IMG/VR virus record: IMGVR_UViG_3300023444_000001
Location: 1-64,000 of that record
From: a virus
Strand: one strand, 5' to 3'
Length of the DNA: 64,000 bases
Position 1 is the stretch's first letter, and each line of letters starts with the position of its first letter. Of this stretch, positions 3,501 through 26,302 are shown piece after piece. Made by a program: the position numbers and the translations under genes. The notes beneath the pieces were generated by a model. The model worked only from the letters and a program-made list of their open reading frames with translations, did no database searches and was not told the DNA's origin.

Positions 3501-3799
3501 CCTACCCTACACTTTACTAAAAGAGTAGACTCAAATGAATTTTCTCCCGAGGTATATCTAAAATACACAGTATAATCCTCATTCTCTGTCATATTATAAA
3601 TTGTAACAGACACTATATTTTCTACCAAATTTGGAATACCTTTAATAACAGTCGCAGATACATCAACTCCAGAAGAATCTAATACTACAACATCATCTAA
3701 AACTGGAGTCTCACCATATCCAACATTTTCCCCAATATCAATAGACAACAAATGAGTCTCATTGGGACTTATCCTATGAATCTCAGGAATAACTCTCAT
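3497..3799 (-). CDS. Hypothetical beta-rich structural protein
   Basis: 100 residues. The pattern resembles a single Ig-like/IPT or Big-type sandwich: PEIHRISPNETHLLSI, then DVSATVIKG, then YTVYFRYTSGENSF. No catalytic residues are apparent. Its position between a virion protein and the head-closure candidate suggests a small decoration or tail-associated protein. Start and stop overlap neighbouring genes by a few bases, supporting operon membership. Confidence 0.6.
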   Translation of the reverse strand: MRVIPEIHRISPNETHLLSIDIGENVGYGETPVLDDVVVLDSSGVDVSATVIKGIPNLVENIVSVTIYNMTENEDYTVYFRYTSGENSFESTLLVKCRVG

Positions 3800-3802
3800 C
3801 TA

Positions 3803-4303: not shown

Positions 4304-4314
4304 AAATTCCTCCT

Positions 4315-4554
4315 TTACTTCAACTTTTTAGGAATTATACAAAAGAACTTAAAACCATCTTTTTTTGCCATATACTTATAATCCCCAGAAGGTCTCTTAT
4401 TTGGAGACTTATTAGCACAAAAATCCATTAAATTTGCCTGAAAAAACTCTGGAGAAACTTGAATTGCATATCCTTTATCCTCTACAATCCCTTCAGGTAA
4501 ATTAACTTTTGCTTCCTTCTTTTGAAGCAAAAATTTTTCAAAGTCTTTATTCAC
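4315..4554 (-). CDS. Small hypothetical protein, GTG start
   Basis: 79 residues from a GTG at 4554. An upstream ATG at 4578 exists in frame, but the AGGAGG ribosome binding site lies just before the GTG and inside the longer reading, so the GTG is preferred. That also removes the overlap with the repeat protein gene, which stops at 4556. The protein is Lys-rich with an aromatic C-terminus (KDGFKFFCIIPKKLK). No family is recognised. Confidence 0.6.
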   Translation of the reverse strand: MNKDFEKFLLQKKEAKVNLPEGIVEDKGYAIQVSPEFFQANLMDFCANKSPNKRPSGDYKYMAKKDGFKFFCIIPKKLK

Positions 4555-4555
4555 T

Positions 4556-6661: not shown

Positions 6662-6665
6662 TCAC

Positions 6666-7193
6666 CTATCCAAGTATAGACTTATAAGCCCAATTAGAAA
6701 AAGCATCTAAATCCACATAACCTCTTTTCAAAACTATACGAAACTCATTCATATCAAAATATGGATCAATCTTTTTAGAATCAACCTCCTTATGCCCTAA
6801 AACAGAATCAATACTTATTAAATATAATTCCACTCTAACTAAATAAGCACACATAATCAATGCTGACCAAATCTGTTTCGGTGTAGGATATACCTCCGGA
6901 GTTGAAATTAAACATATTCCAATACTATTTTCATTATAACCCAAAGCATGAGCACCAACCTCTCCTAAAAAGTCGTATGGATTATCGTTCAAGTCTCTTC
7001 CAGGCATAATCAAACCATCAAGACTTGAATCATAACGTTTTTTTCTCCAATCATCTTTTGTTAAAAATCCATTTCCTATAACAGCATTATATCCTATATC
7101 TTTCCATCCTCTTTCTAAATGCCATCTTCTAATAGTCTTAACATCACCAAACTCTGATGCAGACCCATGCAATATAATTTCATTTTTTTCCAT
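6666..7193 (-). CDS. Endolysin: N-acetylmuramoyl-L-alanine amidase (amidase_2/T7 lysozyme type)
   Basis: 175 residues. The protein matches the zinc amidase fold that cuts the amide between MurNAc and L-Ala in peptidoglycan. Visible ligands and catalytic residues: H9 in IILHGSAS, Y35 in GWKDIGYNAVIG, H134 in LGHKEVD, K141 and D143 in KKIDPYFD. D143 takes the place of the third zinc ligand (Cys in T7 lysozyme), as in many relatives. No signal peptide is present, so release would depend on a holin. The start overlaps the stop of the next small membrane protein gene, forming a lysis cassette with the two genes upstream. Confidence 0.92.
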   Translation of the reverse strand: MEKNEIILHGSASEFGDVKTIRRWHLERGWKDIGYNAVIGNGFLTKDDWRKKRYDSSLDGLIMPGRDLNDNPYDFLGEVGAHALGYNENSIGICLISTPEVYPTPKQIWSALIMCAYLVRVELYLISIDSVLGHKEVDSKKIDPYFDMNEFRIVLKRGYVDLDAFSNWAYKSILG

Positions 7194-9507: not shown

Positions 9508-10392
9508 TTAAGCAGACTCCATCAATACAGCATTATTTGCCTCAATCAACCCTGTACCCCAAATAGCGTACCAAGCCAAAGCGTGCTCCCTACCAAAATC
9601 AGTAACACCATTATCCCTCAACTCTACTGGAAGTCCTTGAGCCCATGCCAAACAATAATCACCAAACATAACTGCTTCATAAACAAGAACCGTACTCTGA
9701 ACCGTAGTCATCATAGTTGTTGAAACAAACCGAACATCCTCATATCTTCCAACTTCGCCAGTAAACAACTGACCTGGAGCACCATAAGAAGAAGCAGAAA
9801 TCCAATCAGGATCATCTCTCAAACTCCTCAACTGATGAGGATGAGCAAAACAAATATAAAAATCCCCATTAAACTTTGGGGCATCTGCTGATTCCAAATC
9901 TTCAACTGCATCTTTAATCAAATCTGTATCAAAAGTATTTGCCGCAGTCAAACTCGCCATATCCGCTACATTGTCAGCATACCGAGTATTTCCTGCTCCA
10001 TTTATTACAGCAGTCTGAAGTTGAGTATCAAGAACTTTAGCCATATTTCTACCAAGCAATTTTGCCGCTTCGGACAAAACATCATGAGTAGCCGTCTGAA
10101 GCAAATACTCTGAAACAGCCGTAGCCTTACCTTGCTCTGCCACAGTTATACTAACCGTAGTTGCAGCCAGAGCATCATAAGTCATCTGAACACCTTCAGT
10201 AAGAGCACCACCTCCTGCAAGATCAGAATACTTCGTAAACTGAATAGTCTGCCCAGGAGTTTTTCCAAGTTCAGTTTTCTCTTGAGCAAACTGGGCAAAC
10301 TTCAATACCGGCATTGCAGCGTAAAAAATCTCCTTACTATATACCGTCTGCAATACTTCCGGCAAATTAGTTGTCGTAGTAAGCGTAGACAT
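9508..10392 (-). CDS. Major capsid protein, N4-gp56 family
   Basis: 294 residues. The translation carries the hallmarks of the N4-gp56 group of HK97-fold capsid proteins: an N-terminal LTTTTNLPEVLQTVYSKEI segment, PGQTIQFTKYSDL, TVAEQGKATAVSEYLLQT, and especially HPHQLRSLRDDPDWISAS and FTGEVGRYEDVRFVSTT. It self-assembles into the icosahedral shell round the scaffold encoded immediately upstream. The gene is less AT-biased than neighbours and uses a clean AGGAG-type ribosome binding site, consistent with high expression. Confidence is high. Confidence 0.95.
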   Translation of the reverse strand: MSTLTTTTNLPEVLQTVYSKEIFYAAMPVLKFAQFAQEKTELGKTPGQTIQFTKYSDLAGGGALTEGVQMTYDALAATTVSITVAEQGKATAVSEYLLQTATHDVLSEAAKLLGRNMAKVLDTQLQTAVINGAGNTRYADNVADMASLTAANTFDTDLIKDAVEDLESADAPKFNGDFYICFAHPHQLRSLRDDPDWISASSYGAPGQLFTGEVGRYEDVRFVSTTMMTTVQSTVLVYEAVMFGDYCLAWAQGLPVELRDNGVTDFGREHALAWYAIWGTGLIEANNAVLMESA

Positions 10393-10418: not shown

Positions 10419-11207
10419 CTACTTTAGACCAAAACTCCTTTTAGGAGGTTTAGCCCCAATAACCTTCCAAATCTCGCTACGACTTTTTTCATACTCTTCT
10501 GGAGACATATTCTTTATTGCTTCCGCAGTAAATTCCGGAATTTCTACTCTTTCCGTTCGACTAATTACTCCAAAAGTCTTCTCTGGACCTGGACTTACAC
10601 TCTCTATATTTGAGTTTGTAGAGCCTCTCTTTTCCTCTAAAAGTACCTCTTTTCTAATACTTTCGTAAGCCATTTTAGCCTTATCAATACTCTCATCAAT
10701 TTCTTCTTTACTATTTCCCCCCACCAATTCTGGGACAAGTTTTCCTTCTGCTTTATTAAGTTTTTCCAATCTATATGCCTTTAATTCTGATTCATGTACT
10801 GCTTGATTAAGAGCCTCAATATTAGCAGTCAATTCTTCTATCTTCTTCATTGTAGCCTTATCTTTCTTTTGCTTCAACCGTTCTAATTTTTCCTTTTCAG
10901 AAAGTTTTTCACTTTCCAATTGCTCTACTGTTTCTGACAACTCTGATAATTTATCATTTAACTCCTTAATTTTCTTATCCCTTTCTTTTATTTTTTCTCG
11001 TTCTCTCTCTAAAGATTTATACATTTTAGCCTTTTCAGTTGCTCTTACTTCCTCCCTAATATTTCTTATTTCCTCCAGTATTTCTGGAGATTTCAACAAA
11101 TCCTTATTTTTTACTTGCAATTCTTCATCATTTGCTTCCTCTTTATTTTCAATAGAAGGTTCTACTTCAGTTGAACTTACTTCTTTAATATCATCTTCTT
11201 TTTCCAT
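10419..11207 (-). CDS. Capsid scaffolding protein (coiled coil)
   Basis: 262 residues. Residues about 40-170 form a long Lys/Glu-rich coiled coil (MYKSLEREREKIKERDKKIK, LSETVEQLESEKL), flanked by an acidic N-terminus and a C-terminal helix with SPEEYEKSRSEIWKVIG and a basic end (PPKRSFGLK). This is the usual layout of phage scaffolding proteins. It lies immediately upstream of the major capsid gene. No protease signature is present. Confidence 0.75.
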   Translation of the reverse strand: MEKEDDIKEVSSTEVEPSIENKEEANDEELQVKNKDLLKSPEILEEIRNIREEVRATEKAKMYKSLEREREKIKERDKKIKELNDKLSELSETVEQLESEKLSEKEKLERLKQKKDKATMKKIEELTANIEALNQAVHESELKAYRLEKLNKAEGKLVPELVGGNSKEEIDESIDKAKMAYESIRKEVLLEEKRGSTNSNIESVSPGPEKTFGVISRTERVEIPEFTAEAIKNMSPEEYEKSRSEIWKVIGAKPPKRSFGLK

Positions 11208-11471: not shown

Positions 11472-14400
11472 CTACCAAACTATTCTATCTTCAACCTTTG
11501 GTTTTCCTGGAGCACCATGTGTTTCAATCCCAGTTATATAACTTGTACGAGTTGTATCCGAATAATTTCCAAACGTATTATAAGCAAAAACTGTAAAAGA
11601 ATAAATAGTCTTAATATCTAATCCAGTAACTACAATCTGAGTATCTGCTTTTGCAACAGATGATTCTGGAGGAGCAATTCCAGTAGTATCCATTATACCC
11701 CAAACAGGAATTGTTCCTTGTTTATATCTTACAACATACCCAGCAATATCTGCTGAATCTCCTTGACTAAAAATCAAATTGACTGAACTTGATCCTACTT
11801 CTAAAGTATCTACATTTGTAACTGGATCAGGATAAACCCTATTCAATGTTTGCTCTGTAGCATAAGCCCCACCATTAGACCCGGTTGTATCAGCATACTG
11901 CATCAATGAATCAAAAGGAAAAACTGATACAGAATAATACTGTCCAGCCAATAATCCATTTATCGTCATTGTAGTATCTACCCGAGACAATGAAGAATCT
12001 ACTATTACCGTTCCTGAATCTTTTGAAGGTGGATACTGTTCAAACCCCACTTTATATCTTCCAGCATATCCCTTCAAATCAGAATCTTGATTTCTCTTAA
12101 ATATCACATCAAGACTCGTCTCTGTTGCATTTATTAACTGAACTCCTTGAGCCGGATTTGGAGGCCAATTTCCATGCGTATTAACTGTTACTGATGATCT
12201 CCCCAATGAATCAGCAACAGAATAATTCTGATTTTCATCAAAAGCAAATACTGATACTGAATATGTACTTGCAGAATCCAACCCAGTAATCACTAAACTT
12301 GTATCACTTCTGCTCAATGATGAATCTTGAGCAACAACTCCTTGACTCCTTGAAGTAGGTGCCGTAGAACCCTGCAAATATGTTGCAACATATCCTGCAA
12401 TATCAAGTGAGTCCCCTTTATTCCAAACCAAATCTATACTTGTAAATCCAACAGATGTTGTATCAACACCTAAAACATTATCTGGAGCCAAACTATCCCC
12501 TTTAGAAAAATAAACTACTAATTCAGGTCTTTTTGCCTGATCTAAATACTCGCTCGATGCAAAAGCATGACTATCTGGAGATTTATGCACATCCCACAAT
12601 TGTACATTCAAAAAATCTATTGGAACCGTCTGGCCTTTAATAACCTTTCTCATCAATGCTGTAACATCAAACTTATACTCCCCATAAGAACTCAAATAAA
12701 TTGAATCTATTGCTGACCCTCTACCACCCCCAGAATCCCATTTAATAGTATTCCCCATAGGAGATGCCCATGTAGCCAAACTATCCACCCACGAGTCTAT
12801 ACAAGCGTATAACACTATTGTATCCTGCCCTCCAGATACAAAATTATACTTCACAAAACTTGAATCTATTATATCATAAGGATGCACCAAACCAGAAAGA
12901 TCAAATTGACTGTAACCATATCTCCAAAAAGTTGAATCTGGTCCAGGATCATTTTTTACCAATATTGTCGCATTTCTTCCATAATTAGTATTCCTATCAC
13001 TTCCATCCTTTGTAAAAGTATCAAATGTTCTCCCCTTATAATCTGAACTACCTCTTTCTCCAACCGTAAAAGAAGAGTAAGACAATTCAAGAGTTGTAGA
13101 ATCTGCCCATGATCCAGAGCCTAAATTTGAATAATTATTGCTTTCATCAAAAGCAAAAACAGAAACCGAATAATTTTCCGAAGAATTTAATCCATTTATT
13201 CTAAATGTTGTATCTAATCTTGAACTTGTAGTTCCCCAAAGTTGTCCAGACTGATAATTTACTGGAGCATTATTTAACCCAACATTTGCTTTAATCATAT
13301 ACCCCGCAATATCAAGAGAATCCCCTTTATTCCAATGAAGCCTCATCCATGTTGTACCAACAGAATCTATTGAAACCCCTCCTACCATATCAGGAGGTAA
13401 AACATCTCCTACTGGAGCCAAACCATACAAAAAATAACTATCTCTAAAAGGTATTTTCAAACTATCATTAACAATAGAATAATCATTATGTGCTGAATCA
13501 CTCCAAACATAAGCAATATGATCTGTAATTCTTGCCGCTTGAATTTTTCTATAGGTAGAATCTGGCCCTGGAACATCAACTTTAACCGTATCCTGCTCAC
13601 GTAGATTAACTCCAACCCATCCATGCTCAAATACTCTTTGATAACCAATAAATCCCAGGGAATCTCCTGCTGTCTTTGATGGAATCAACTCTACATTATC
13701 TATCCAAATTGATCGAGATTCATTATTTCTTAAAATTGGAGTTATTCCAAATTCAACCTGTACATTTGTCAATAAACCTGAAGTCCTATTTGTATCTATT
13801 TCAACTGGAATATAAACTGTTCTCCACATTTTAGGAATATGAACACAATCTACTCTATATAAAGTTCTATTTGAATGTATTCTAACTCCAATCAATTTGG
13901 AATCAATAGATCGAGCATCAAACTTCAAAGTATACTCCGCTTGATTATTCAAAGAAAAAGTATTTGATCCAACTGCAAAATCATAAAAATCATTCTCTGG
14001 AACATTTATATTTCCATCTCTCCTATTAACATTTATCTGAATTTTCATAGCCCCAGAACCTGATTTAACCACATCTGTAACCCTTGAAATAGAAATTGAA
14101 TCAGAAGGCACTCCAGAACCTGATACAGACCATCCACTTAAATTTACATCAAATGTTCCATTCGTAATCTTATTCTCTTTTGAAAAATTTAACAATAAAG
14201 GTCGCCATTTATCTACAGGTTGTCCTAACCACCATCTATTAGGCCCAACACTATCTGGATTTGTAGAAATACCATTTGAATCAACAAAATACTCATCTCC
14301 CCAAACTGCATGAGGTTTTGCGTATTTCATTTTAGTCATTCCATTCCCACCAAATATTGTCATCAACCCAAGATTGAATCTTTCACTTCTAATTGCATCC

Positions 14401-15908
14401 TTTTCATTTGATGCAGATACTAATTGTGGTAAGTAATTATTGCTATATGAGGCATATCTATATCTTTTTGCTTGAGTCAATTCAAGCAAATTATCTAAAT
14501 CATCTCTATAATTACCTGCCCACCTACCATTAGTTAAATCCCAGGGGCTACCACCCCAACCAATCTCAGCCAAATTCATAATTTGAACTAAACTATCTTC
14601 TATTCCCATAAAAGACATACCTCTTGCATTTACAGACAAATAAATTAAACTATCATTTTGACTTTGAAACATACTTGCCGCCCTAATCAATGCAGAATCA
14701 CTTGATTCTCCCTTTTTCCCCACATGATTATAAAAATACGTATCATAATTAACTCCAGCACAAAGCAAAGTATTTCTCGAAGATAAAACTTTTTCAATAG
14801 TATTTATCTCAAGAGATGCCTTCAATTCATAAGGCCATACACCATGAATTGCTCCATCTCCTTCAAGTCCTTTTAACAAAATACCTTCCCAAGAAGAATA
14901 AACTCTTCCTCCTTGTTCTGCAGAACTCTGCAAATAATATACTGTGCTTCCATTAGGCCATGATGTAGCCGGATAAGAACCATTTTGCCAAGACCTTATA
15001 ACATACAATGAATCATTTCCAGTTCCCGAATTATCCCAAACTTTATCAACTCTACACCATTCATTTTTTTTAATTTGAATAAACGGACGATGAGAACCAT
15101 AAGTAATTCCATCTCCTCCATCAGGTGGAGGAAACATACTTGCATCATTTACCTTCAAAAATCTTCCACTACCTGATGCTCTCATTAAAACTGTACTATC
15201 ATTATATAAATATTCAATTGTATCCGGAACTGAAAATAACAAAGACTGAATAGAATCCGCCACAACAGTACCTATTGTATCTTGATATACTGGAGCAGTT
15301 AATCTAAGATTCATTAGTTGTATATCTGAATGTAATACTTCAATAAAATCTGGATTATAAATACTCAAAGAATCTAATCTATCACGTTTCTCTTGAACAT
15401 TTGACGTACCAGAACCGCCCAATTCTGTATCCCCATCCCATCCTATATCCAACCTTGCAACACGTTTAATTGTGTCCCCCATAAAATAACTCATGTTCAA
15501 TCCATTAAAAGTATATCCAACTTTTGGATATTCATAATCAAATCCCTGAATATACAAAGAATCTGTTCCAACTCTTGACCAAATACCAGAAGACTTCTTA
15601 AAAAGACTAAACCAAATAAAATCTTCTTCCGGCATTACTTTAGCCACAATAACAGTATCACTACTTGTAAATACTCTTGGAGGCAAAATTTTTACCCCAA
15701 TCGTGTCAAAATCAGGGTAACTCAACATATCATATGTAACTTTCAAACTATCCCCAGAACCCAACCCAATCCATCTAATGCCTATTGTATCTGGAACAGT
15801 CAATTTTTGTTGACTTTTGAGCCATACATCAAACGTTTGAGAAAAAATACTGGTTGAACTACAAACCAAAAATCCCATTACCAAATATACAATGTATAGT
15901 CTTTTCAT
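11472..15908 (-). CDS. Secreted multidomain protein: glycosidase-like barrel, CBM, DNRLRE and four FN3 domains
   Basis: 1478 residues with a Sec signal peptide (basic MKRLY, hydrophobic core, likely cleavage after SIFSQ, about residue 24). Residues about 330-575 resemble putative glycoside hydrolase-like barrels of the GHL15 kind (DGAIHGVWPYELKAS, WGDEYFVDSNGI, NRWWLGQPVDKWRPLL). Residues about 580-740 look like a CBM4/9-type galactose-binding domain (ITNGTFDVNLSGWSVSGSG). Residues about 845-940 are FN3. About 945-1140 is a DNRLRE-type domain (TNYGRNATILVKND, YGYSQFDLSGL). Three further FN3 repeats follow to the end, each with the TGLDS..YSVSVFAFDE pattern. It probably binds and processes polysaccharide outside the cell. 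No dockerin is seen in it, but the next gene upstream encodes one. Its stop is followed by the capsid promoter. Catalytic identity is uncertain. Confidence 0.8.
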   Translation of the reverse strand: MKRLYIVYLVMGFLVCSSTSIFSQTFDVWLKSQQKLTVPDTIGIRWIGLGSGDSLKVTYDMLSYPDFDTIGVKILPPRVFTSSDTVIVAKVMPEEDFIWFSLFKKSSGIWSRVGTDSLYIQGFDYEYPKVGYTFNGLNMSYFMGDTIKRVARLDIGWDGDTELGGSGTSNVQEKRDRLDSLSIYNPDFIEVLHSDIQLMNLRLTAPVYQDTIGTVVADSIQSLLFSVPDTIEYLYNDSTVLMRASGSGRFLKVNDASMFPPPDGGDGITYGSHRPFIQIKKNEWCRVDKVWDNSGTGNDSLYVIRSWQNGSYPATSWPNGSTVYYLQSSAEQGGRVYSSWEGILLKGLEGDGAIHGVWPYELKASLEINTIEKVLSSRNTLLCAGVNYDTYFYNHVGKKGESSDSALIRAASMFQSQNDSLIYLSVNARGMSFMGIEDSLVQIMNLAEIGWGGSPWDLTNGRWAGNYRDDLDNLLELTQAKRYRYASYSNNYLPQLVSASNEKDAIRSERFNLGLMTIFGGNGMTKMKYAKPHAVWGDEYFVDSNGISTNPDSVGPNRWWLGQPVDKWRPLLLNFSKENKITNGTFDVNLSGWSVSGSGVPSDSISISRVTDVVKSGSGAMKIQINVNRRDGNINVPENDFYDFAVGSNTFSLNNQAEYTLKFDARSIDSKLIGVRIHSNRTLYRVDCVHIPKMWRTVYIPVEIDTNRTSGLLTNVQVEFGITPILRNNESRSIWIDNVELIPSKTAGDSLGFIGYQRVFEHGWVGVNLREQDTVKVDVPGPDSTYRKIQAARITDHIAYVWSDSAHNDYSIVNDSLKIPFRDSYFLYGLAPVGDVLPPDMVGGVSIDSVGTTWMRLHWNKGDSLDIAGYMIKANVGLNNAPVNYQSGQLWGTTSSRLDTTFRINGLNSSENYSVSVFAFDESNNYSNLGSGSWADSTTLELSYSSFTVGERGSSDYKGRTFDTFTKDGSDRNTNYGRNATILVKNDPGPDSTFWRYGYSQFDLSGLVHPYDIIDSSFVKYNFVSGGQDTIVLYACIDSWVDSLATWASPMGNTIKWDSGGGRGSAIDSIYLSSYGEYKFDVTALMRKVIKGQTVPIDFLNVQLWDVHKSPDSHAFASSEYLDQAKRPELVVYFSKGDSLAPDNVLGVDTTSVGFTSIDLVWNKGDSLDIAGYVATYLQGSTAPTSRSQGVVAQDSSLSRSDTSLVITGLDSASTYSVSVFAFDENQNYSVADSLGRSSVTVNTHGNWPPNPAQGVQLINATETSLDVIFKRNQDSDLKGYAGRYKVGFEQYPPSKDSGTVIVDSSLSRVDTTMTINGLLAGQYYSVSVFPFDSLMQYADTTGSNGGAYATEQTLNRVYPDPVTNVDTLEVGSSSVNLIFSQGDSADIAGYVVRYKQGTIPVWGIMDTTGIAPPESSVAKADTQIVVTGLDIKTIYSFTVFAYNTFGNYSDTTRTSYITGIETHGAPGKPKVEDRIVW

Positions 15909-17134
15909 TGACTCTTGCCTTTCATCCTTAACATTGTATTCTTAATATCCTCAAAATTCTTTGCCTTCGTTGATATACTCAATTCATCTACAACTCCATC
16001 CCAAGGATAATTTATTACTCCAGATGTATTCTTAATTGCTCCAATCCAAACTTTCATTGAATCAGCAATATTCCATCCTGTAATTCCAGAAGGAATGGCC
16101 GGACTTAAAACATTAGAACTATCTTTTATCACACCATTTATGTACAATTTTATTTCAGACAAAGAATCTGAATATACAGAAGCAATATAATACCATTTAT
16201 TTACCTGCAATTTATTTTTTGCTGATAAAATTGTATTTGTTCCCGCAGTATCAATATATCCTACCTTAAACAATGAATCTGACCCATCAACATAAAATCC
16301 CCAAAATCCCTTCATTCCATAAGTAGAACAAACCATCATTGTATCGGAAGATACTGCTGTTTCCGGTTTAATCAGCATTTCAACAGTCTTTGCTACCAAA
16401 GAACTATCAGCATTTTTTTCTGCTAATTGAGTTGAACCGTCAAAATCTAAACCTCCAACCCTCCCATTCAAAGCAGTCTTATAATAAGGAGAAACCTTTG
16501 TAATTATACTATCACCAAAAGAAGTCTCTGAATATAATGTCTGATTAAATTTCCAAAGAAAAACTGTATTTGAATCAGGATCAAGAGTTCTATTTGTATA
16601 ACCCATTCTATTAAAAATCTCATACAAATCAGACCAATCTACCTTCCTATCTCCCGTAATATCATAAATTGAATACCCTGAATTATTCCAATGTTCTGCA
16701 ATCAAATTCAAATCAACACCATTTACAATACCATCTTCATTTACATCCCCTCTCAATCCAACAAACCTTGTACTGTCCACAGATAAACAAGATTCAACCA
16801 AAGGATTATTTTTCAAATATCGTCCAATCCGAATATAATACCTAAAAGATGAATCCCATAGTGCAAACGAAAGATGAACGATCCCATTTGAATCTGGACT
16901 TACATACCCAAGGTCTATAGTATCTGGATATAAGCCAATTACACTCCCCAAATAAACTTTATAAGACATTGAATCCGAAACAACTTGACTTGAATCTATT
17001 GTACAATTTCCTGAATCAGCATAAACTGTATTTCCATCCAAAATGCTAACTGAAACAACTTTATTCTCATGGGTTATACCTTTGGAATAAAGTAAAAAGA
17101 AAAGCAAAATCAAACAAGAAATAACCTTTTTCAT
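15905..17134 (-). CDS. Secreted dockerin-containing protein with LamG-like domain
   Basis: 409 residues. Residues 1-20 form a Sec-type signal or anchor (MKKVISCLILLFFLLYSKG). Residues about 127-178 are a dockerin: the first half GDVNEDGIVNGVDLNLIAEH has the full calcium loop D-x-N-x-D-G-x-V-N-x-x-D, and the second half DITGDRKVDWSDLYEIFNRM repeats it with a T in place of N. Residues about 185-395 form a concanavalin/LamG-like sandwich (VGGLDFDGSTQLA, KTVEMLIKPE, NKWYYIASVYSD, KLYINGVIKDSS, VWIGAIKN). Dockerins bind cohesins, which in bacteria assemble polysaccharide-degrading complexes. The adjacent gene (17135-17575) encodes a cohesin-like protein. The gene overlaps the next by 4 bases. Confidence 0.85.
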   Translation of the reverse strand: MKKVISCLILLFFLLYSKGITHENKVVSVSILDGNTVYADSGNCTIDSSQVVSDSMSYKVYLGSVIGLYPDTIDLGYVSPDSNGIVHLSFALWDSSFRYYIRIGRYLKNNPLVESCLSVDSTRFVGLRGDVNEDGIVNGVDLNLIAEHWNNSGYSIYDITGDRKVDWSDLYEIFNRMGYTNRTLDPDSNTVFLWKFNQTLYSETSFGDSIITKVSPYYKTALNGRVGGLDFDGSTQLAEKNADSSLVAKTVEMLIKPETAVSSDTMMVCSTYGMKGFWGFYVDGSDSLFKVGYIDTAGTNTILSAKNKLQVNKWYYIASVYSDSLSEIKLYINGVIKDSSNVLSPAIPSGITGWNIADSMKVWIGAIKNTSGVINYPWDGVVDELSISTKAKNFEDIKNTMLRMKGKSQ

Positions 17135-17575
17135 CTATACAACCTTAACTCTATATTGAGAAAATGAACCTTTTTCATTGATAGGGCTTAATCCATCTCC
17201 TTGTATAATTCTAAAAATTCCATCTGTAATCCAAATCCATGCTACTCCTGTAACAAGAGCATTAAAATAAAGACTAAACAAACTGCCCGAACCATTTATG
17301 CCTTTTCTTGATCCTAATCGTGAATACCCAAAAGCAATTTTTCCTATATCTCCTTCAATATACCCCATATCTAAAGCAGTTTCAATATTACCAAAATTAT
17401 CCAAAAATCCACCTTTTTCAACTACAGGAGATAAATCAGGATAACTTGTAGAACTTTTAACTTGAACTTTAGATGTATCACTTATGCGAATAGTACCTGC
17501 TACACCATGAAGTTCCCTTACTCCATGAACAATAAAATTTATCTTAAAATCATTTCCAACCAATACTTTACTCAT
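17135..17575 (-). CDS. Cohesin-like domain protein
   Basis: 146 residues, essentially one cohesin-like nine-strand sandwich. It begins with a 'G..F.i.f.v.gv..L.G' pattern (VLVGNDFKINFIVHGVRELH), has the expected 'v...GGFLDNF' turn, and ends with 'GsGsLf.l.F.a...G..wi.i.dg.f' (NGSGSLFSLYFNALVTGV) plus a final loop GDGLSPI. These positions match cohesin and related carbohydrate-complex domains. No signal peptide is visible, unlike the dockerin protein encoded 1 base downstream, so this copy may be a virion or intracellular component. Binding to the neighbouring dockerin is inferred from family knowledge and adjacency. Confidence 0.7.
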   Translation of the reverse strand: MSKVLVGNDFKINFIVHGVRELHGVAGTIRISDTSKVQVKSSTSYPDLSPVVEKGGFLDNFGNIETALDMGYIEGDIGKIAFGYSRLGSRKGINGSGSLFSLYFNALVTGVAWIWITDGIFRIIQGDGLSPINEKGSFSQYRVKVV

Positions 17576-17922
17576 TACAAATTCTCTAAAATCTCTGTTC
17601 CTCCAAGAGACCGCAACTTTTGAGCCTTAACCATTTCTAATTCTAAAAGTAATTTATTCTCTTCAAAAAGCAAACTTTCAAATTCATTTCCCGCAGAATA
17701 TACATCTACAAGACTATCTCTATTATTTATATTTACTCGATCTAATGCTTTCCCATATTGTTTTTCCGCATTTTTTCTCTTCTTTTCCACTTCTTCCAGT
17801 ATAAATTTAATCCTATGTTCTTCCACAATAGCATCTCTTGCTAAATCAGCCCTTTGAAACAAAAGTGCAGTATATTTTTTCCACATCTCATCAATAGTTA
17901 TCTTCGGAGACAAATTACTCAA
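17575..17922 (-). CDS. Coiled-coil hypothetical protein between MuF and cohesin genes
   Basis: 115 residues, almost entirely helical and charged (IKFILEEVEKKRKNAEKQYG, LLFEENKLLLELEMVKAQKL). No motif is recognised. It is one base apart from or overlapping the cohesin-like gene, so the two are probably made together. A minor head or scaffold-accessory role is possible. Confidence 0.6.
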   Translation of the reverse strand: MSNLSPKITIDEMWKKYTALLFQRADLARDAIVEEHRIKFILEEVEKKRKNAEKQYGKALDRVNINNRDSLVDVYSAGNEFESLLFEENKLLLELEMVKAQKLRSLGGTEILENL

Positions 17923-17943: not shown

Positions 17944-20900
17944 TCAGTCTTTGGAGTTGATATAATTCTTCCCTTCAACTCTATCACCAAAAACTTTTTT
18001 TAATTCTTTTTCCAATTTTGAATTTCGAACTCGAATAATTTTCACATCCTCAAAGTTTATTCCTCCCTCATGCACAAATTGAACTTCTTTCCGAAATACA
18101 TTTGAAGCAATTTTCTTCCCTTTAACCTCCAAATTCCCAGTTACCCCTTTATATAAATTTTCTACCCCAGAAAAAGTTTGCCCCTTAATTTTAAACAAAG
18201 TTTCCTTCTGAAAAAAGATATCTTTATCCAATACAAATTTGAACTCTCTATTTTTTCCGACAAATTTCGAGAAATCTAATTCTCCTCCTATCTTTCCCTC
18301 TTCTTCTAATGTAGTTGGAATCCTCTTAAACCATAAAGCCTTCATTCCATCTTCACTTTTCAAATTCAAAATAATAGGCTTCAATTCTCTATCTATTGTC
18401 TCCACCATCTTTTCTCTTGGAACTGACTCAATATAAAACTTTTTCAAATTATCTAACATCTCCGACATGAATGTATCACCAATATCTTCCTGCTTTATAG
18501 GAATTAACTCCGAAAATCTCTTTGTAGCAAAAATCCTATTACGAGCCATAATATCTATTGGAGAATCAGAAGTCAAAATATAACTATAGACATCCCTATC
18601 CTGACCCAAACGAAAATTTCTCCCATTTCTCTGAATAAATGTCTTAAAATTCTTCGGCAAATCAAGATGAATTGTAACTTTAGCCATTTGAACATTTATT
18701 CCTTCAGACTTTGCTGAAGTTAGAATCAAAAATTTCTGCTCTGGAATTTCTGAAAACTTCTTGAGAATCTTTTGCACATCCATATTCTTTGTAGAACCTG
18801 TTAAAGCAACAGCCCTATCCTTCCCAAGAAAATTCCTCAAATTCTTTGCTACTTCATTTGATTCTGTATGAATTATAATCTTATCATCGGGATGTTTCTT
18901 AGCAATTTTCAAAATTTCCTTATAAAAAGCATTATCTTTCCCTGAACCAGAACGCAAAACCTTCATTAAATCGTGCCGCCTATGTGTTTCTAATTGAACT
19001 AATTCTTTTGTTGCTCCCTTTCTAATCAACTCCTGCTTCTTAATTTCATACATTTTTTCCAAATTTCTATATTCCATTTTTTGAACTTTAGTCAACTTTA
19101 CCTTTATTAACTGTTTATTTCTCATTTCAACAGGTAAAGCCTCATTAAAATAATCAATCAATCTGATCCCTCTTATTGGAGCCTTTGCAACAAATATTGA
19201 ATCATCGAACAAACTATTAAATGTCTTAACCATCAAAGGCCGAGCAAAGTTATTCTCTGTTGTCAACCCACCAAAAACTCTTCCTCCAAATTTTGCCCCA
19301 GAAAACATATCGACAAATTCTCTCTTTGTCATTCCTGTTTTTCCGGGCTGTAACCATTCAATAGTATCCCACATCTGCCCAATATTATCCTTTATAGCCG
19401 TACCAGTAAGACCAACCTTATATTTAATCCTTTTTGAAACCAAATCTCTTAAAATCCTTGATTCTTTAGAATATGCTTCATAATCAAACACATCCCCAAC
19501 AGGAGTTAAATCATGAATTTCATCTATAACAACCATATCATACTTCATCCGTAATTCTTTAACCAATGAAGCCGCATCCTTATGTGTTATCACATCTATT
19601 TTATACTTACCAGGATTTTTCAACATTTTCAACTCTATGTCTCTTTTCCCTGAAATCAATCTTCCCTTATATTTACTAAACTTTTTAATCTCACTAACCC
19701 AATTCATTTTTGTTCCTGATGGAACTACAACTAAAGCCCTTTTTACTTTTCCTGCTGAAATTAAATCTGAAATAGCAGAAATAGATGTCGGAGTTTTTCC
19801 AAATCCCACTCCAGCATTGAGTAAAACATTTTTCTGCTGAACAATAAATTCCTCTGCCGCCCTTTGAACTGGTTTCAAAGTTATACCTTCTTTAATACCC
19901 AAAATCTTTCTATCAAATACCCCTCCCTTCAAAACAATATTATTTTTTATATCTTCAAACTCATTTTGCCAATTTTTAATTCTCTTCCATCGAATAGCAT
20001 GAATATCAAGCCATTCTTCAAAATAAAATTTCCTTCTTTCCGGAAATCCTCTAACCCATTTAGGAATAACATAATAGGCTTTCCCAGTTTTAACATTCTT
20101 CCTGATATAAACATTCAAATACCTCATAGCCTTATTAAATTCCTTTGGAGTTCCTTGACTCCACTTCAATAACAATTCGGGAGAAGGCAAATTTTTTGCC
20201 ATATCTGCACTTATACCCCAATCTATCAAAGTTTTACTTCTTGAACGATAAGGCCAAATCCTATTAGTATAATTTATAAACTCTGATCCACCCAAACTAT
20301 ATGGATCACTCTTAACAAGAGCATCTCTAACAATAGCATTTACTATCTCATCAGGAGGAATAAATTTTACAGGAATAAATCTTTCATCATCAATATCTAA
20401 AACATCAATTCCAATTTTTTTTAATTCATCTCTTGAACCCACATAAGCAATTTCCTTAACCCCATCTCTTGCTTCCGTTATAGCCTCTGGAGTAAAAGAT
20501 TTCAATGAACCTTTAACTCTAAAAAAGACTTTATGATATTTTTCTGGATTTATCTTAAACTGGTAAAATTTACCTATTTTTCCAAGTATTCCATCTTTTT
20601 TAACCTGCAAACCTAAAGTTTCTAATCTTCGCAATGCAGTTTCTCTTGTTTTTCCAAGTACAACAAAAACATCCTTTGGAGACATTAAAGCCAACCGAAT
20701 CTGATCTACAGCATTCATACTACCCAGTATTCCACCTAATTCACTTTGTGCTTGTGAAAATAAACTATCAGCAATTACTCTTGAAGCATTTTTTCCTTTG
20801 AATCCAGCCTTTCTCATAGTCCGCAAAGTTGAATATCCATCATTAAGTAATCCATCAACACTCTTCAATCCACGCTTTGTATAAATTCCAATTCTTTGAT

Positions 20901-22269
20901 GAGTAACCAACTTATCTAAAACCTCTAATAATTTTTTTCTGTCCACAGTTTTTGTACTTTGTTTTATTGCTTCAACAAGAACTTGACTTGCATTTTCAAC
21001 TCCAAGCAAATTAAACTTTTCCCAAGTAAATGCTGGTTGCCCCAAAAGTTGAAAAGCAATTCCATTCATAGCATCAAAAGCACCTCTTTTGACCGGAAGA
21101 GAAAAAGCCGCATTTACAAAATTCTCTACCTCATAATAATTACTATTTATAGCCTCCTTCAATTCACTCTCTGATTTCTTAAGAAGAACTTTTGCAAATG
21201 TTTTCATCCTACCCTTTCCCCCAACAGACTCCATTTTTGCAACTTCTCTAACCAAAGACCGAAATGTAGGCCCACTCATTTTATCTAATAAAGCAAGAGT
21301 CTCACCTGAAGCAAACCTTTTTGCTCGTTCAATAACAATAGAAGGTAATCCTTTATGAACTAAATCTCTTGGAGAAAATTCTTGAGGAGATAATCCAGCC
21401 CTTTCAAAGGCTTCTCTTCTACGAGCCATAAGAGCCGTATAGACTGGACTTAATCCACATTGACAATATGGATGGGGAAATGTTGGGGCCTCATCAGTAT
21501 AATATACCCCTCGAAGAGAAAGATTTCCAACAGAAAGACCCTCTCCTTCAAGAGGTGTTGCATTAGCCAATTTTTCACAAATCTCTACTCCATGTTGATC
21601 CAAATGATTTGAAGACAAATCCCACTTAACAAGAGGAACTCCCCTTTCTTTTGAAAAAAGAACAGTAGCCTCCTGATAAGCCCTTCCTGCTTCTGATCTA
21701 ACTAATCTTTGTCCCCATTTTAATTCTGAAGCCCCATAAGGAGACCTTCCCGGAATATTATAAGTCAATCTTCCTTTTAACTGTTGTCTAACAAAACTAA
21801 TGCTTTTCCCCTTTTTAAGAACTGAATACCCAAAAGTTCTTATACGTTTATCCAAATAATTTAATCTATCTTCAATAGTTAATCCATTAAAGGGCTTAAA
21901 ATATTGCATAAAAGCCCTTTTCTTAAAATCCTTAATTTCCTCCATCGAAATTGAAGATAATCCCATTTTTCTAAAAATTCTTTGCTGATGATAAAATGCT
22001 CTGTTAATAGATTCTGAAACTGCTTTATTTGTTTTAACCTGAAGCCCAAACATCAATTCTTTTGTATTTTGTCGAAGTATTTCTCTTGAAAACTTTTCAT
22101 CCTCTCGAAGTAAAAATCTCTCACCCTTAAATGAAGATGTAACTGTATTTGCAAGATCAGTATATGCTCCATACAAATTATCTCCAATACGTTTACTTTT
22201 TCTTACATTTATATCTAACGCATGAACAAAACGCTTTCTCTGTATTTTCGTAGATAAATACTTAGGCAC
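17944..22269 (-). CDS. MuF-like minor head protein fused to SNF2-family helicase
   Basis: 1441 residues. Residues about 120-285 are a MuF/SPP1-gp7-type minor head domain: WGQRLVRSEAGRAYQEA, then WDLSSNHLDQHGVEICEK and FPHPYCQCGLSPVY, the conserved R.E...A / H.D.C / P.PHP.C.C signature. Residues about 790-1230 form an SF2/SNF2-like ATPase. Walker A is NAGVGFGKTPTS (about 817), box II is VVIDEIHDL (about 915), then LTGTAI. Motif V is TSAKSEGINVQMA and motif VI is QRNGRNFRLGQ (about 1212). The rest has no domain I recognise. MuF proteins occupy the portal region and can be ejected with DNA, so the helicase is probably delivered into the host at infection, where it could remodel or protect incoming DNA. 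It overlaps the portal stop by 8 bases. Confidence 0.9.
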   Translation of the reverse strand: MPKYLSTKIQRKRFVHALDINVRKSKRIGDNLYGAYTDLANTVTSSFKGERFLLREDEKFSREILRQNTKELMFGLQVKTNKAVSESINRAFYHQQRIFRKMGLSSISMEEIKDFKKRAFMQYFKPFNGLTIEDRLNYLDKRIRTFGYSVLKKGKSISFVRQQLKGRLTYNIPGRSPYGASELKWGQRLVRSEAGRAYQEATVLFSKERGVPLVKWDLSSNHLDQHGVEICEKLANATPLEGEGLSVGNLSLRGVYYTDEAPTFPHPYCQCGLSPVYTALMARRREAFERAGLSPQEFSPRDLVHKGLPSIVIERAKRFASGETLALLDKMSGPTFRSLVREVAKMESVGGKGRMKTFAKVLLKKSESELKEAINSNYYEVENFVNAAFSLPVKRGAFDAMNGIAFQLLGQPAFTWEKFNLLGVENASQVLVEAIKQSTKTVDRKKLLEVLDKLVTHQRIGIYTKRGLKSVDGLLNDGYSTLRTMRKAGFKGKNASRVIADSLFSQAQSELGGILGSMNAVDQIRLALMSPKDVFVVLGKTRETALRRLETLGLQVKKDGILGKIGKFYQFKINPEKYHKVFFRVKGSLKSFTPEAITEARDGVKEIAYVGSRDELKKIGIDVLDIDDERFIPVKFIPPDEIVNAIVRDALVKSDPYSLGGSEFINYTNRIWPYRSRSKTLIDWGISADMAKNLPSPELLLKWSQGTPKEFNKAMRYLNVYIRKNVKTGKAYYVIPKWVRGFPERRKFYFEEWLDIHAIRWKRIKNWQNEFEDIKNNIVLKGGVFDRKILGIKEGITLKPVQRAAEEFIVQQKNVLLNAGVGFGKTPTSISAISDLISAGKVKRALVVVPSGTKMNWVSEIKKFSKYKGRLISGKRDIELKMLKNPGKYKIDVITHKDAASLVKELRMKYDMVVIDEIHDLTPVGDVFDYEAYSKESRILRDLVSKRIKYKVGLTGTAIKDNIGQMWDTIEWLQPGKTGMTKREFVDMFSGAKFGGRVFGGLTTENNFARPLMVKTFNSLFDDSIFVAKAPIRGIRLIDYFNEALPVEMRNKQLIKVKLTKVQKMEYRNLEKMYEIKKQELIRKGATKELVQLETHRRHDLMKVLRSGSGKDNAFYKEILKIAKKHPDDKIIIHTESNEVAKNLRNFLGKDRAVALTGSTKNMDVQKILKKFSEIPEQKFLILTSAKSEGINVQMAKVTIHLDLPKNFKTFIQRNGRNFRLGQDRDVYSYILTSDSPIDIMARNRIFATKRFSELIPIKQEDIGDTFMSEMLDNLKKFYIESVPREKMVETIDRELKPIILNLKSEDGMKALWFKRIPTTLEEEGKIGGELDFSKFVGKNREFKFVLDKDIFFQKETLFKIKGQTFSGVENLYKGVTGNLEVKGKKIASNVFRKEVQFVHEGGINFEDVKIIRVRNSKLEKELKKVFGDRVEGKNYINSKD

Positions 22270-23680
22270 CTACTTTCCCCTTAAACATATCAGCAAAAGT
22301 ACCTCCTCGACCACTTATACTTGCTTCTTGTTCTAATTGAGTTTTATGCTCTTTATCAATTCGAGCCAATAATTCAGATATATTTTTAATTCCAAGACGA
22401 CTTAAAGCCCCTTCACGATCTATCAACCCCAAAGATAATTCCATTTCTAACTCTTGCAACAAAGTAATTCTATCCTTGGGCAATGGGTCCTTAAATACTA
22501 CCGAAGTATCATATGCTTCAAAATCATCTCCATCCTTCAATTTTGGAATTTTTTTCTTTGTCTCCAAAATCTTCAAGATAAGTCGATTTGTTCTTTCTAA
22601 TCCACGTCCATACGTAAGCCTTTTTAACTTCATTCTTTCTACAAGCGGCATATATTGAACATGAAGTGCCGCCGCAGATGTATTTGAAATAGGCTGCATT
22701 TGTCCTAAAGTGGCTTCAGGAACATTAGACATCTCATGTAAACTCTTTTTTAACAATTCCAAATACTTTATCGAAGAAGATAAATTACCTGCCAGATTCA
22801 AAAACTTAACATCTCCATCCGTTGGTATATTTGACCAAACCCGCCCCGCAGACCTAATAACATTCTTAAATGAAACTCCTTTTATAACTGTAATAGGGGC
22901 ACCATAATAGGCTATTGTATCTGAAACATCCGAAATTTTCTCATTATATTCCAAATTCAAATCTATTAAATTTATCATATCACTTAAACCCCAAAATACT
23001 CCACTTATAGGCAAATTTGAAATATGCACCAAAGGAATCTCCATAATAGGATTTTCCAATGATTCCTTTAATTCATCATCAAGGTATAATTCAATTTTAT
23101 CTTCATAAAAAATCTCTTTATATTTTCTTCTAACTCTTTCTCCAGTTTCAGTATTAAACTCATATATCGGAAATTCAATTTTTACCCATATAAGTCTTTC
23201 TCTATCACCTGGACTCCATACCACATCAACTAATCTGCCATCAACGACATTTAATGTAATCTTCTGCGAAACTTCATCAAACCAAATTTTTAGCCATGAA
23301 TCCCCCGTAACTCCTCCCTCTTGAACTAATTCATACAAACGTAATCCACGAAAACTATCAGAACCCCAAGCCTTTATTAAGGCTTTTTCTCCCAAAGACT
23401 CATTAACCTTCGGCAAATTAAATTCCAACCCATTTCCAATTAAAGCAAAAGAAACCTTATCTACAAATGCTCTAACAAAATTCACAGTTAATTGAGATTC
23501 TCCCTCTTTTCCCTCAAATATCCAATGCTTTCCAAGATACCACTTCCAATATTGATTATATTTTCTCCTCCTTTGTTCAAAAGCAACATCTTGATCTTCA
23601 GAAACATAATACAGAGGACCTTTAACTGCATTTTGTCCCGACTTAGATTTGCTAAAATCTATTCTCTCATTAGTAGCCAA
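22262..23680 (-). CDS. Portal protein, SPP1 gp6-like
   Basis: 472 residues. Family features include the N-terminal YNQYWKWYLGKHW helix, VNFVRAFVDKVSFALIGNG, EGGVTGDSWLKIWFD, the central NLPISGVFWGLSDMINLIDL followed by LEYNEKISD, and SNVPEATLGQMQPISNTSAA in the stem/crown helices. The dodecameric portal forms the DNA channel at one capsid vertex and binds the terminase. The gene lies directly after the large terminase (11-base overlap) and before the MuF gene, the canonical order. Confidence is high. Confidence 0.93.
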   Translation of the reverse strand: MATNERIDFSKSKSGQNAVKGPLYYVSEDQDVAFEQRRRKYNQYWKWYLGKHWIFEGKEGESQLTVNFVRAFVDKVSFALIGNGLEFNLPKVNESLGEKALIKAWGSDSFRGLRLYELVQEGGVTGDSWLKIWFDEVSQKITLNVVDGRLVDVVWSPGDRERLIWVKIEFPIYEFNTETGERVRRKYKEIFYEDKIELYLDDELKESLENPIMEIPLVHISNLPISGVFWGLSDMINLIDLNLEYNEKISDVSDTIAYYGAPITVIKGVSFKNVIRSAGRVWSNIPTDGDVKFLNLAGNLSSSIKYLELLKKSLHEMSNVPEATLGQMQPISNTSAAALHVQYMPLVERMKLKRLTYGRGLERTNRLILKILETKKKIPKLKDGDDFEAYDTSVVFKDPLPKDRITLLQELEMELSLGLIDREGALSRLGIKNISELLARIDKEHKTQLEQEASISGRGGTFADMFKGKVGA

Positions 23681-25334
23681 ATATATACCTCCTATTTAAT
23701 CTTCTCCTTCTTGCTACATCCTTAAAAATATTAAAATCATCGTCCTGCATTTCGACCATTGTTCCATCTTTAGAAGCCAAAACCATTAAGGCTAAACTAT
23801 CAGCAAAATCATCTCTTGAACCTTTAATCATCGGGTCTTTTCCACAAACCAAAAATGCTCCACGCCAAGATTTTGTCAAATTAGTAACTTGCTCCTTAAA
23901 TCTTTTCCATCGAGCAAGAGATTTATCAGCCTTTTTACCCGGAACATGAATTCTCCCCGCATTAACTTCAGTCAACAATGTTTTCCACAAAATACTCTTA
24001 GCAGATAATCCTGAAAATGGATAGCCTCTTACAACTACACTTGAATCATATCTATCATAATAACCAATAAATCTATCCGCAACCGGATCACCTTTACCTT
24101 GACTATCAATATAAACTACTCTAACATTGTAATTATTCAAAAATTCTACTATCTGTCCAAATTGACTTTCATGATCTTCCCCAAATAATTCCAACCAATT
24201 TTCAACATACAACTGGGCATTTCCTTCCTCATCCACAGAATCTAAATCTATCTTCCCAACAGTACAAACAGTGGAACAAGGTGATTTTCCAATGTCTATT
24301 CCAGCAACATGAGTTCCCTCTTTATCTAATGTAACAATATGCCAAGACTCATCAACCATTTTTTCAAAAAACATATCTTCAGTAATTAGTGTCCCTTGAG
24401 AAAAAAGCCATTTTATTTCATAACTCATCTTAAATTCATCAGAATCTTCTCCTAAACGATCTTTCTCTTTCTTAATAAACTGGGCATATTTCAAATGAAT
24501 AGAGTTATGATCTTTTTCATACTGTTTCTTTTTATCTCTTATGGCTATCTGATATGGTACCTCTGTATGATAATCTCCTAATCCATCCGCTTTTCTCCGC
24601 CTATTTCTCTTTACAGCATAAAAAAAATCAGATTTCAATCTATTTGGACTTCCCGTTTTAACTATAACCCCATTATAAGCCGCAAGCATCGGATGAATTG
24701 ACTTCAAAACCTGCATACTATCGGCATCTTGAGCCTCATCAATAAAAATAAGCATATAAGTCTTACTCTCAATTAAAGCCTGTTTATTGCAAGTAGCCGC
24801 CTTACAAAATGAACCATTAGAAAGACGTAGCCCCCCATATCTTCTATCCAAATTAAGATCAAGGTCTGGATCACTTAATATCATCTTAGCATGATCTGTT
24901 TCAATTCGCATTTTGGTCCGAAGAAATGTTGTATCTACTTGATCTGCTCTTGGAGCAAACATACCTACCCAGATACCATTCTTATAAATCGAAAGTTTAT
25001 CCGGATAATATTCTGCAAGGGTAGGTAACAAAATCATTGCTGAACCTGTAATTCCAGCAACAGTCTCTGTTTTTCCTGATTGTCGTGCAAATAAGGCTGT
25101 TATTTCTTCTCCATTATTTAGCAATAAAGACTTGAAAACCTTAAATGCAAACTCTTTCTCATAATCATAAAAATTTAACTTTGTCAATTTTTCCGCAAAC
25201 ACTATAAGCCGCTCAGCCAGAAAATTAACATCAAATTCCGGCATTTTATCCGGAACATCATTAGATTCCTGATTCTCTAATGCAACTTGAGCATTATATT
25301 TCTCTAAACTAACCCTTCGAGCAATTTTAGGCAT
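23670..25334 (-). CDS. Terminase large subunit
   Basis: 554 residues. ATPase: Walker A LFARQSGKTETVAG (about 81-94) and Walker B plus catalytic Glu LIFIDEAQDAD. Nuclease (RNase H-like): acidic residues in VAGIDIGKSPCS, VVYIDSQGKGDPVADRFIG and RDDFADSLALMVLAS. It pumps DNA into the prohead and cuts the concatemer. No terminase small subunit was recognised upstream. The start overlaps a glycosyltransferase gene by 31 bases, an unusual arrangement. Confidence 0.95.
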   Translation of the reverse strand: MPKIARRVSLEKYNAQVALENQESNDVPDKMPEFDVNFLAERLIVFAEKLTKLNFYDYEKEFAFKVFKSLLLNNGEEITALFARQSGKTETVAGITGSAMILLPTLAEYYPDKLSIYKNGIWVGMFAPRADQVDTTFLRTKMRIETDHAKMILSDPDLDLNLDRRYGGLRLSNGSFCKAATCNKQALIESKTYMLIFIDEAQDADSMQVLKSIHPMLAAYNGVIVKTGSPNRLKSDFFYAVKRNRRRKADGLGDYHTEVPYQIAIRDKKKQYEKDHNSIHLKYAQFIKKEKDRLGEDSDEFKMSYEIKWLFSQGTLITEDMFFEKMVDESWHIVTLDKEGTHVAGIDIGKSPCSTVCTVGKIDLDSVDEEGNAQLYVENWLELFGEDHESQFGQIVEFLNNYNVRVVYIDSQGKGDPVADRFIGYYDRYDSSVVVRGYPFSGLSAKSILWKTLLTEVNAGRIHVPGKKADKSLARWKRFKEQVTNLTKSWRGAFLVCGKDPMIKGSRDDFADSLALMVLASKDGTMVEMQDDDFNIFKDVARRRRLNRRYIFGY

Positions 25335-26302
25335 TCTTCTTTTAACTCCGCAATAATTTCATAACTTCTTAAATCCACTAAAACCAAAACATCTGGAGGT
25401 TTTTTAGGTGCCTTTTCAAGCCAAGAAAAAGCCTCCTCAATATCTCCTTTTCTTATTAAACTTCTTGCCAATATTACAAAATCTTCTCCAAAATTCGGAT
25501 TCTCCAGTATATTTTTCTTAACTAAACTAATTGCATCATCAAAATTTTCTAATCGTAAACTACTTTCTGCTTTCAATCTTCTTGCATATTGAATATTATA
25601 TAAAATATAAGACTTTTTCTCTACTATATCAGCAACTTTATATCCTTCATGAAATTTTTTATGCTCAATCAATTCTCTTGCAAAATGAAGCAATAACCAT
25701 CCTTCTTTATCATTCTCAAAATCTACTGCTTTTTCAACTAAGTCTAAACTCTGTTCTCTTCTCCATTTCTCTCTTTCAAGATTTTTTCTTTTCCTGCATT
25801 CAATCCAAACTTTATCAGGAAGAATAACATCCATGAAACCAGCACCAATCAATCTATTGTGAACATCTCCTATCCACCAACCTTTATTAACCCGCCATAT
25901 TCTATTTTGAAATCCCCTAAACCTGAACCTAACTTCGTTAGTTTTTCTATGCTTATATGGTCTTCTAAAATATGAAAGAGCATATCCAGCCACTTTTTTC
26001 CCAGAATTATCTAAAAGACCTCTTAAATATTCAGAACTTCCCCTTAAAGTTTCATCTCCATCAACCATAATAGCCCATTCAGTTTTAACAAATGAAGAAC
26101 AAACATTTCTTAAATGAGCAAAAGAATTATTCCATTTCTCTTCTAAAACTTTTGCTCCAAATTGTTTTGCCAATTCTACAGTTCCATCCTTTGATCCAGT
26201 ATCTAAAATCACCATATCATCAACAAAAGGCACAATACTCTCCAATGTTTCTTTTAATTCCTCCTCTTCATCTCGTACAATCATTGATAAAGTTAAACCC
26301 AT
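25304..26302 (-). CDS. Family 2 glycosyltransferase with C-terminal TPR-like helices
   Basis: 332 residues. Residues 1-110 form a GT-A fold: LSMIVRDEEEELKETLESI, DDMVILDTGSKDGTVELAKQ and the metal-binding AIMVDGDETLRG (DxD type). Residues about 190-310 are paired helices resembling tetratricopeptide repeats (FENDKEGWLLLHFARELIEH, NIQYARRLKAESSLRLENFD). Such GT2-TPR enzymes glycosylate proteins or surface molecules. The gene overlaps the terminase start, so it is expressed with the packaging genes. Possible targets are virion proteins, host surface glycans or modified DNA; the sequence does not decide. Confidence 0.85.
   Translation of the reverse strand: MGLTLSMIVRDEEEELKETLESIVPFVDDMVILDTGSKDGTVELAKQFGAKVLEEKWNNSFAHLRNVCSSFVKTEWAIMVDGDETLRGSSEYLRGLLDNSGKKVAGYALSYFRRPYKHRKTNEVRFRFRGFQNRIWRVNKGWWIGDVHNRLIGAGFMDVILPDKVWIECRKRKNLEREKWRREQSLDLVEKAVDFENDKEGWLLLHFARELIEHKKFHEGYKVADIVEKKSYILYNIQYARRLKAESSLRLENFDDAISLVKKNILENPNFGEDFVILARSLIRKGDIEEAFSWLEKAPKKPPDVLVLVDLRSYEIIAELKEECLKLLEGLV

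Follow-up and report, generated by a model that had tools for sequence, protein, structure and literature searches.

The viral record IMGVR_UViG_3300023444_000001 comprises 81,937 bases in IMG/VR, and its bases 1-64,000, here termed the window, encode a cohesin-like and a dockerin protein side by side within the head genes of a phage. The open reading frame (ORF) for a 409-residue dockerin-LamG protein, ORF409 (15905-17134), adjoins that of a 146-residue protein, ORF146 (17135-17575), whose sequence identifies it as a divergent stand-alone cohesin. Together with ORF1478 (11472-15908) they form a 6.1-kb cassette inserted between conserved head genes. Among the phage records searched, separate adjoining genes for a cohesin and a dockerin were found only in the window. 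All main genes of the window, these three included, lie on the minus strand. A first-pass annotation had reported the pair, and this observation was confirmed: both ORFs occupy exactly 15905-17134 and 17135-17575 and abut at TAG|ATG. Its interpretation as a docking complex was partly supported. As the simplest functional reading, we tentatively suggest, with somewhat less than even confidence, that a virion cohesin and an exported dockerin-LamG protein form a detachable glycan-binding adaptor.

The domain assignment of ORF409 was obtained directly with Pfam. The protein begins with a signal-peptide-like N-terminus (MKKVISCLILLFFLLYSKG; 17075-17134) recognized by its hydrophobicity, followed by a beta-rich pre-dockerin region (residues 25-122; 16769-17062), the dockerin and the LamG domain. 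Of the N-termini of 94 minus-strand ORFs this is the most hydrophobic, and its K-K/hydrophobic pattern is that of a signal peptide, suggesting that ORF409 is exported. The Dockerin_1 model (PF00404) matched residues 129-176 with 29.8 bits, compared to a curated cut-off of 22.9. The type I dockerin spans residues 127-178 (16601-16756) and contains two tandem 12-residue calcium loops of the pattern D-x-N/D-x-D-x3-N/D-x2-D (DVNEDGIVNGVD and DITGDRKVDWSD), formed by D130-N132-D134-N138-D141 and D158-T160-D162-D166-D169. The second loop is slightly degenerate, with T at position 3 and R at position 6. In a genome search of the 81.9-kb record this was the sole dockerin (E=8.5e-9), and solved dockerins were the top, albeit weak, matches of ORF409 in a PDB sequence search (E about 0.006). 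Laminin_G_3 (PF13385), a concanavalin-like lectin domain, matched residues 246-397 (15944-16399) with 52.5 bits, well above its cut-off of 27.6. Both the complete two-repeat dockerin and the LamG domain described previously are thus present. No catalytic family of Pfam was matched by ORF409. Bacterial proteins of the loci L037 (Poribacteria) and L038 (Armatimonadetes) have a comparable pre-dockerin region ahead of a dockerin. At 44543-45541, the minus strand encodes another protein that clearly has a signal peptide (MKTVFLSLVVIVAMVFSSLGFAQ) and matched no family.

ORF146 on its own matched no entry in Pfam, NCBIfam or the PDB sequences, and the Pfam Cohesin model (PF00963) gave no match at E<=10. 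Its affiliation was revealed by comparison with two Poribacteria genomes, which were found via their dockerins and contain 11 and 8 Pfam cohesin matches. When ORF146 was compared by phmmer with all ORFs around the Poribacteria cohesin loci, six cohesin ORFs ranked first (1.2e-5 to 4e-4), with all alignments falling on the cohesin domain; the next ORF followed at 0.48. A hidden Markov model (HMM) of seven Poribacteria cohesins, each itself a member of Pfam Cohesin, assigned 26.5 bits to ORF146, equivalent to E=6e-6 at Z=24,736 (a Pfam-sized library), a value that is somewhat optimistic because the seven domains were picked after the phmmer result. None of 100,000 shuffled sequences reached this score (best 18.2 bits), the reversed sequence scored 0.2, and of 1272 ORFs drawn from the window and from loci that had not been retrieved as cohesins, ORF146 alone matched significantly. 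A broader profile of 19 cohesins yielded only 10.6 bits (E=0.45), and ORF146 is therefore a divergent member nearest to one subfamily. Its identity with the nearest Poribacteria cohesins ranges between 22 and 29% over the domain. The best-aligned core comprises residues 51-115 (V-x-K-G-G-F-L ... G-Y-I ... G-K-I ... G-S-G-S-L-F-S-L-x-F-N-A; 17231-17425), with 37% identity across 62 columns of the HMM alignment. A joint profile of ORF146 and bacterial cohesins found solved cellulosomal cohesins (3l8q, E=2e-10), a match that is not independent because bacterial members are part of the profile. The cohesin-like character ascribed to the 146-residue neighbour in the first-pass annotation is upheld by these results. 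Of the profile searches proposed there, the Pfam model recovered the dockerin but not the cohesin, which was detected with the subfamily profile.

Pfam profiles detected no further cohesin in the 81.9-kb record, and ORF146 has room for one. Several other candidate similarities of ORF146 were discarded. A match to Croceibacter phage P2559Y (E=0.3) fell on the wrong part of a 1249-residue tail-region protein without cohesin features, and matches to haloarchaeal plasmids (E>=0.4, transcription regulators) were attributed to chance.

The cassette is flanked on both sides by phage head genes. Upstream lie the large terminase (23670-25334), the portal (22262-23680), a fusion of a MuF head protein with an SNF2/DEAD helicase (17944-22269) and a gene for 115 residues (17575-17922), and downstream the head scaffold (10419-11207; E=1e-11 to the gene adjoining the capsid gene in locus L028) and the major capsid protein (9508-10392; phrog_1357, E=1e-56), with 27 relatives in viral contigs. 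The location inside the virion gene block, noted before, is hence correct. The inserted unit proved larger than the reported pair, as it includes the 1478-residue protein. The 115-residue gene and ORF146 meet at TAATG, ORF146 and ORF409 at TAG|ATG, and ORF409 and ORF1478 overlap by four bases (ATGA); this close packing suggests coupled translation. As ORF146 and ORF409 are in frame across TAG|ATG, stop recoding could in principle fuse them by read-through. This reading was rejected, since TAG, TGA and TAA all serve as normal stops elsewhere and ORF409 starts with its own signal peptide. The GC content of the three genes is 32-35%, compared to 34% for the window. ORF1478 contains four fn3 domains (Pfam fn3, 78 bits), a CBM96 domain (39.4 bits) and a signal-peptide-like N-terminus, and is therefore probably exported as well. 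Its N-terminal half was not assigned to a family and matched no PDB entry, and neither viral contigs nor phage records yielded relatives of ORF1478.

The 27 loci related through the capsid protein share portal, MuF and scaffold proteins with the window (27-33% identity in blastp). In L028 the order is MuF-helicase, a gene for 118 residues, scaffold and capsid, with nothing in between, and the insert is equally absent from L017 and L029, which have the same MuF-scaffold-capsid order. The three genes are therefore regarded as an accessory insert. The 118-residue gene of L028 resembles the 115-residue gene of the window in place and length and may be its counterpart, although the match is weak (phmmer, E=0.014). 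No dockerin was found in the records of the capsid-based relatives, many of which are fragments.

Dockerins were also detected in other phages. Searches by tblastn with ORF146, ORF409, ORF1478, one Poribacteria dockerin and two Poribacteria cohesins gave no credible match among 50,697 phage records, and viral scans with cohesin alignments revealed no relatives. Scans of IMG/VR located dockerins in three unrelated phage groups, mostly in virion-block proteins; these counts are lower bounds because the scans rest on short exact patterns. In L002 (2552-5941), L003 (1-3264) and their divergent relative L064 (1-2433), all on the plus strand, a complete type I dockerin (35.4 bits in L002) forms the C-terminus of the tail protein encoded after the tape measure and is thus kept in two divergent members of this group. 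In L061, which has a T4-type capsid gene (Gp23, E=1e-135), the capsid gene is immediately followed by that of a 945-residue protein (3346-6183, plus strand) with a C-terminal dockerin of 19.1 bits, below the cut-off (E=7e-5). This protein has an internal duplication, and the 263-residue protein that follows it (6164-6955, plus strand) may be enzyme-like. In L060, a single secreted chain of 695 residues (1604-3691, plus strand) contains both a dockerin-like stretch of 18.1 bits, below the cut-off, and a probable cohesin (E=2.8e-4 at Z=24,736). No cohesin was found near the dockerins of L002, L061 and L064 in the stretches examined. These dockerins are phage-encoded and mostly part of virion gene blocks, like that of ORF409, but they belong to unrelated phages and, unlike in the window, the dockerin is fused to a virion-block protein or both modules share one chain.

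If ORF146 and ORF409 bind each other, the following sequence of events can be envisaged. Late in infection, ORF409 and ORF1478 would be exported via the Sec route of the host, while ORF146 would stay in the cytoplasm and become incorporated on or close to the capsid. Once the cell has lysed, the ORF409 dockerin would plug in a calcium-dependent manner into the cohesin of ORF146 on the released particles. The LamG domain, possibly with the CBM96 domain, would then tether the particles to glycans, either those of the host envelope or those of the substrate inhabited by the host. The cassette would accordingly act as a detachable counterpart of the Ig-like (immunoglobulin-like) fibres of capsids. 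In favour of this reading speak the domain identities of ORF409 and ORF146, the coupled gene junctions, the absence of the insert from relatives, the dockerins of virion-block proteins in L002/L003/L064 and L061, and the combination of both modules in L060.

Several observations speak against such an adaptor. ORF409 looks exported and ORF146 does not, so that the dockerin and the cohesin would meet only after lysis or if particles display ORF146. The claim of secretion in the first-pass annotation accordingly stands for ORF409, with the most hydrophobic N-terminus of the 94 ORFs, and does not extend to ORF146, which has no signal peptide; the differing localisation signals of the two proteins were not weighed there. 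The in-frame sequence upstream of the ATG of ORF146 lies inside the 115-residue gene and is not hydrophobic. ORF146 also has no anchoring domain, and the first cohesin strand of its relatives is mostly missing. It is the position in the head operon that suggests a place for ORF146 in the virion, and its binding to the dockerin of ORF409 is suggested by adjacency, which is no proof of pairing because many bacteria and archaea have dockerins without cellulosomes. None of the sequenced close relatives shows the pair to be conserved. A single-sequence AlphaFold2 model of ORF146 was all-beta with nine strands, but with a predicted local distance difference test (pLDDT) score of 44 and no fold match it was unusable; Foldseek matches obtained with this model were dismissed as meaningless at such a score.

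Two other explanations compete with the adaptor, and we consider each of them unlikely though of appreciable weight. Exported ORF409 might dock on surface cohesins of the host itself, with a change of adhesion, a block of superinfection or an aid to adsorption as the outcome, or released or displayed ORF146 might capture dockerin proteins of the host, each module pairing with host partners. Such a remodelling of the host surface would agree with the export signals of ORF409 and ORF1478, with the cohesin-dockerin systems of uncultured Poribacteria (the 11 and 8 matches above) and Cloacimonadota (PMC8542988), and with the phage dockerins of L002, L061 and L064 that have no cohesin nearby in the stretches examined. 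The glycosyltransferases and the PIG-L deacetylase of the phage, a glycan-modifying set, would likewise suit a phage that acts on surface glycans, but they do not discriminate between the adaptor, host partners and no docking. Against host partners, the adjacency and coupling of the two genes suggest a cognate pair more readily. Comparably doubtful is the view that no docking takes place, the dockerin being an in-cis calcium module that stabilises the pre-dockerin domain and ORF146 a non-docking beta-sandwich, an ordinary virion or cytoplasmic protein. The slight degeneracy of the second calcium loop, the divergence and shortened first strand of ORF146, the recurrence of the pre-dockerin and dockerin arrangement in bacterial proteins (L038) and the common occurrence of non-cellulosomal dockerins (PMC9012536, PMC10066038) are consistent with this view. 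It leaves unexplained, however, why complementary modules are found in coupled adjoining phage genes, a pairing that the searches of 50,697 phage records did not reveal.

That the cassette is passenger cargo, a recently captured polysaccharide-utilisation fragment of the host that is useful to the host or neutral and has no role in the particle, appears improbable. The absence of the insert from relatives and domains typical of bacterial secreted proteins would be expected in this case, but the composition of the three genes matches that of the phage and the genes are intact and coupled both mutually and with the head operon, an arrangement pointing to late expression and not to a benefit for the host. 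An artefact, whether from a chimeric contig or from a chance likeness between ORF146 and cohesins, is hardly credible: the lack of a database match for ORF146 alone and its low score with the 19-cohesin profile are outweighed by its E-value of 6e-6 and the 100,000 shuffles of which none attained its score, and the insert has phage genes on both sides and a uniform composition.

Should the pair of ORF146 and ORF409 dock, the strong calcium-dependent plug with which bacteria assemble extracellular enzyme complexes would have been adopted by phages. The glycan binding or adsorption of the virion would then be served by a separable, swappable adaptor in place of a fused binding domain, and cohesin-dockerin biology would extend from cells to viruses. 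The dockerins in several unrelated phage gene blocks suggest that this is perhaps more than a single accident. A general use of the cohesin-dockerin plug and socket by phages, as a modular means of equipping particles or of adsorption to hosts with cellulosome-like surface systems, is an idea we regard as rather doubtful. Under it, the window would represent a version with a separate virion cohesin and an exported dockerin-lectin, whereas in other lineages dockerins would be fused to tail or head-block proteins.

Other genes of the phage are described briefly. Baseplate, tube-like and tape-measure-like genes in the rest of the record point to a contractile-tailed phage. The MuF-helicase is a single chain of 1441 residues, with phrog_1657 at 187-277, the phrog_62 helicase at 721-1250 and a weak DarB-like match. 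The fusion also exists in L028, while L017 and L029 have the MuF part alone. Packaged in the capsid, the protein could enter with the injected DNA and perhaps have an anti-restriction role. The scaffold and capsid proteins of several relatives (L006, L007, L009-L013, L019, L020, L031) have a common short N-terminal motif, K-A-Y/F/H-A then D/E, possibly a processing site, which is missing in the scaffold and capsid proteins of the window. Glycosyltransferases, the PIG-L deacetylase and methyltransferases are encoded at 25304-26302, 36193-36726, 36695-38109, 38100-39098 and 40946-41896 on the minus strand. On the same strand, genes for QueC, GTP cyclohydrolase I and a radical SAM protein lie near one another (39111-39812, 41900-42475 and 42707-43420) and probably belong to a 7-deazaguanine pathway of DNA modification. 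A 701-residue protein (4556-6661, minus strand) consists of degenerate repeats, about 20 in number and each some 23 residues long (xSVGISDxVSKxxxFxR), which are not detectable as a tandem repeat in the DNA; its Pfam S5 match looks spurious. A CobT-like VWA protein (62193-63995, minus strand) adjoins a MoxR/CobS-like ATPase (L005, 320-1534, minus strand); other phages are likewise known to have such a cobaltochelatase-like pair.

Cohesin and dockerin modules are well known, and it is the phage context that is new; searches of open-access literature retrieved no report of phage-encoded cohesin-dockerin pairs. With the pairs of cellulosomes, such as the ScaB cohesins and the CelS dockerin of Acetivibrio, the window shares a type I dockerin with two calcium loops, and the joint profile of ORF146 finds ScaB-type cohesins. 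It differs in being phage-encoded and in having a single cohesin that lacks a signal peptide, with neither a scaffoldin nor an identified catalytic domain in the partner: Pfam detected no multi-cohesin scaffoldin in the record, and its sole dockerin is joined to LamG and not to a glycoside hydrolase. Resemblance is also seen to non-cellulosomal systems. Cohesins and dockerins of this kind are known from Cloacimonadota (PMC8542988), from ANME (anaerobic methanotrophic) archaea (PMC9012536) and from Omnitrophota, which also have Laminin_G_3 adhesins (PMC10066038). The sequences nearest to ORF146 are those of Poribacteria, and in such systems dockerins likewise accompany adhesive domains in secreted proteins. 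They are, however, cellular and usually have several modules per protein, whereas the pair in the window is viral and located between head genes. A review of phage carbohydrate-binding proteins names BACON domains and neither dockerins nor cohesins (PMC9853417). The capsid Ig-like domains and the BACON domains of phages resemble the proposed adaptor in that small beta-sandwich domains would hold particles to glycans, but they form part of virion proteins by fusion and bind without an intermediary, whereas ORF146 and ORF409 would bind via a separable plug and socket.

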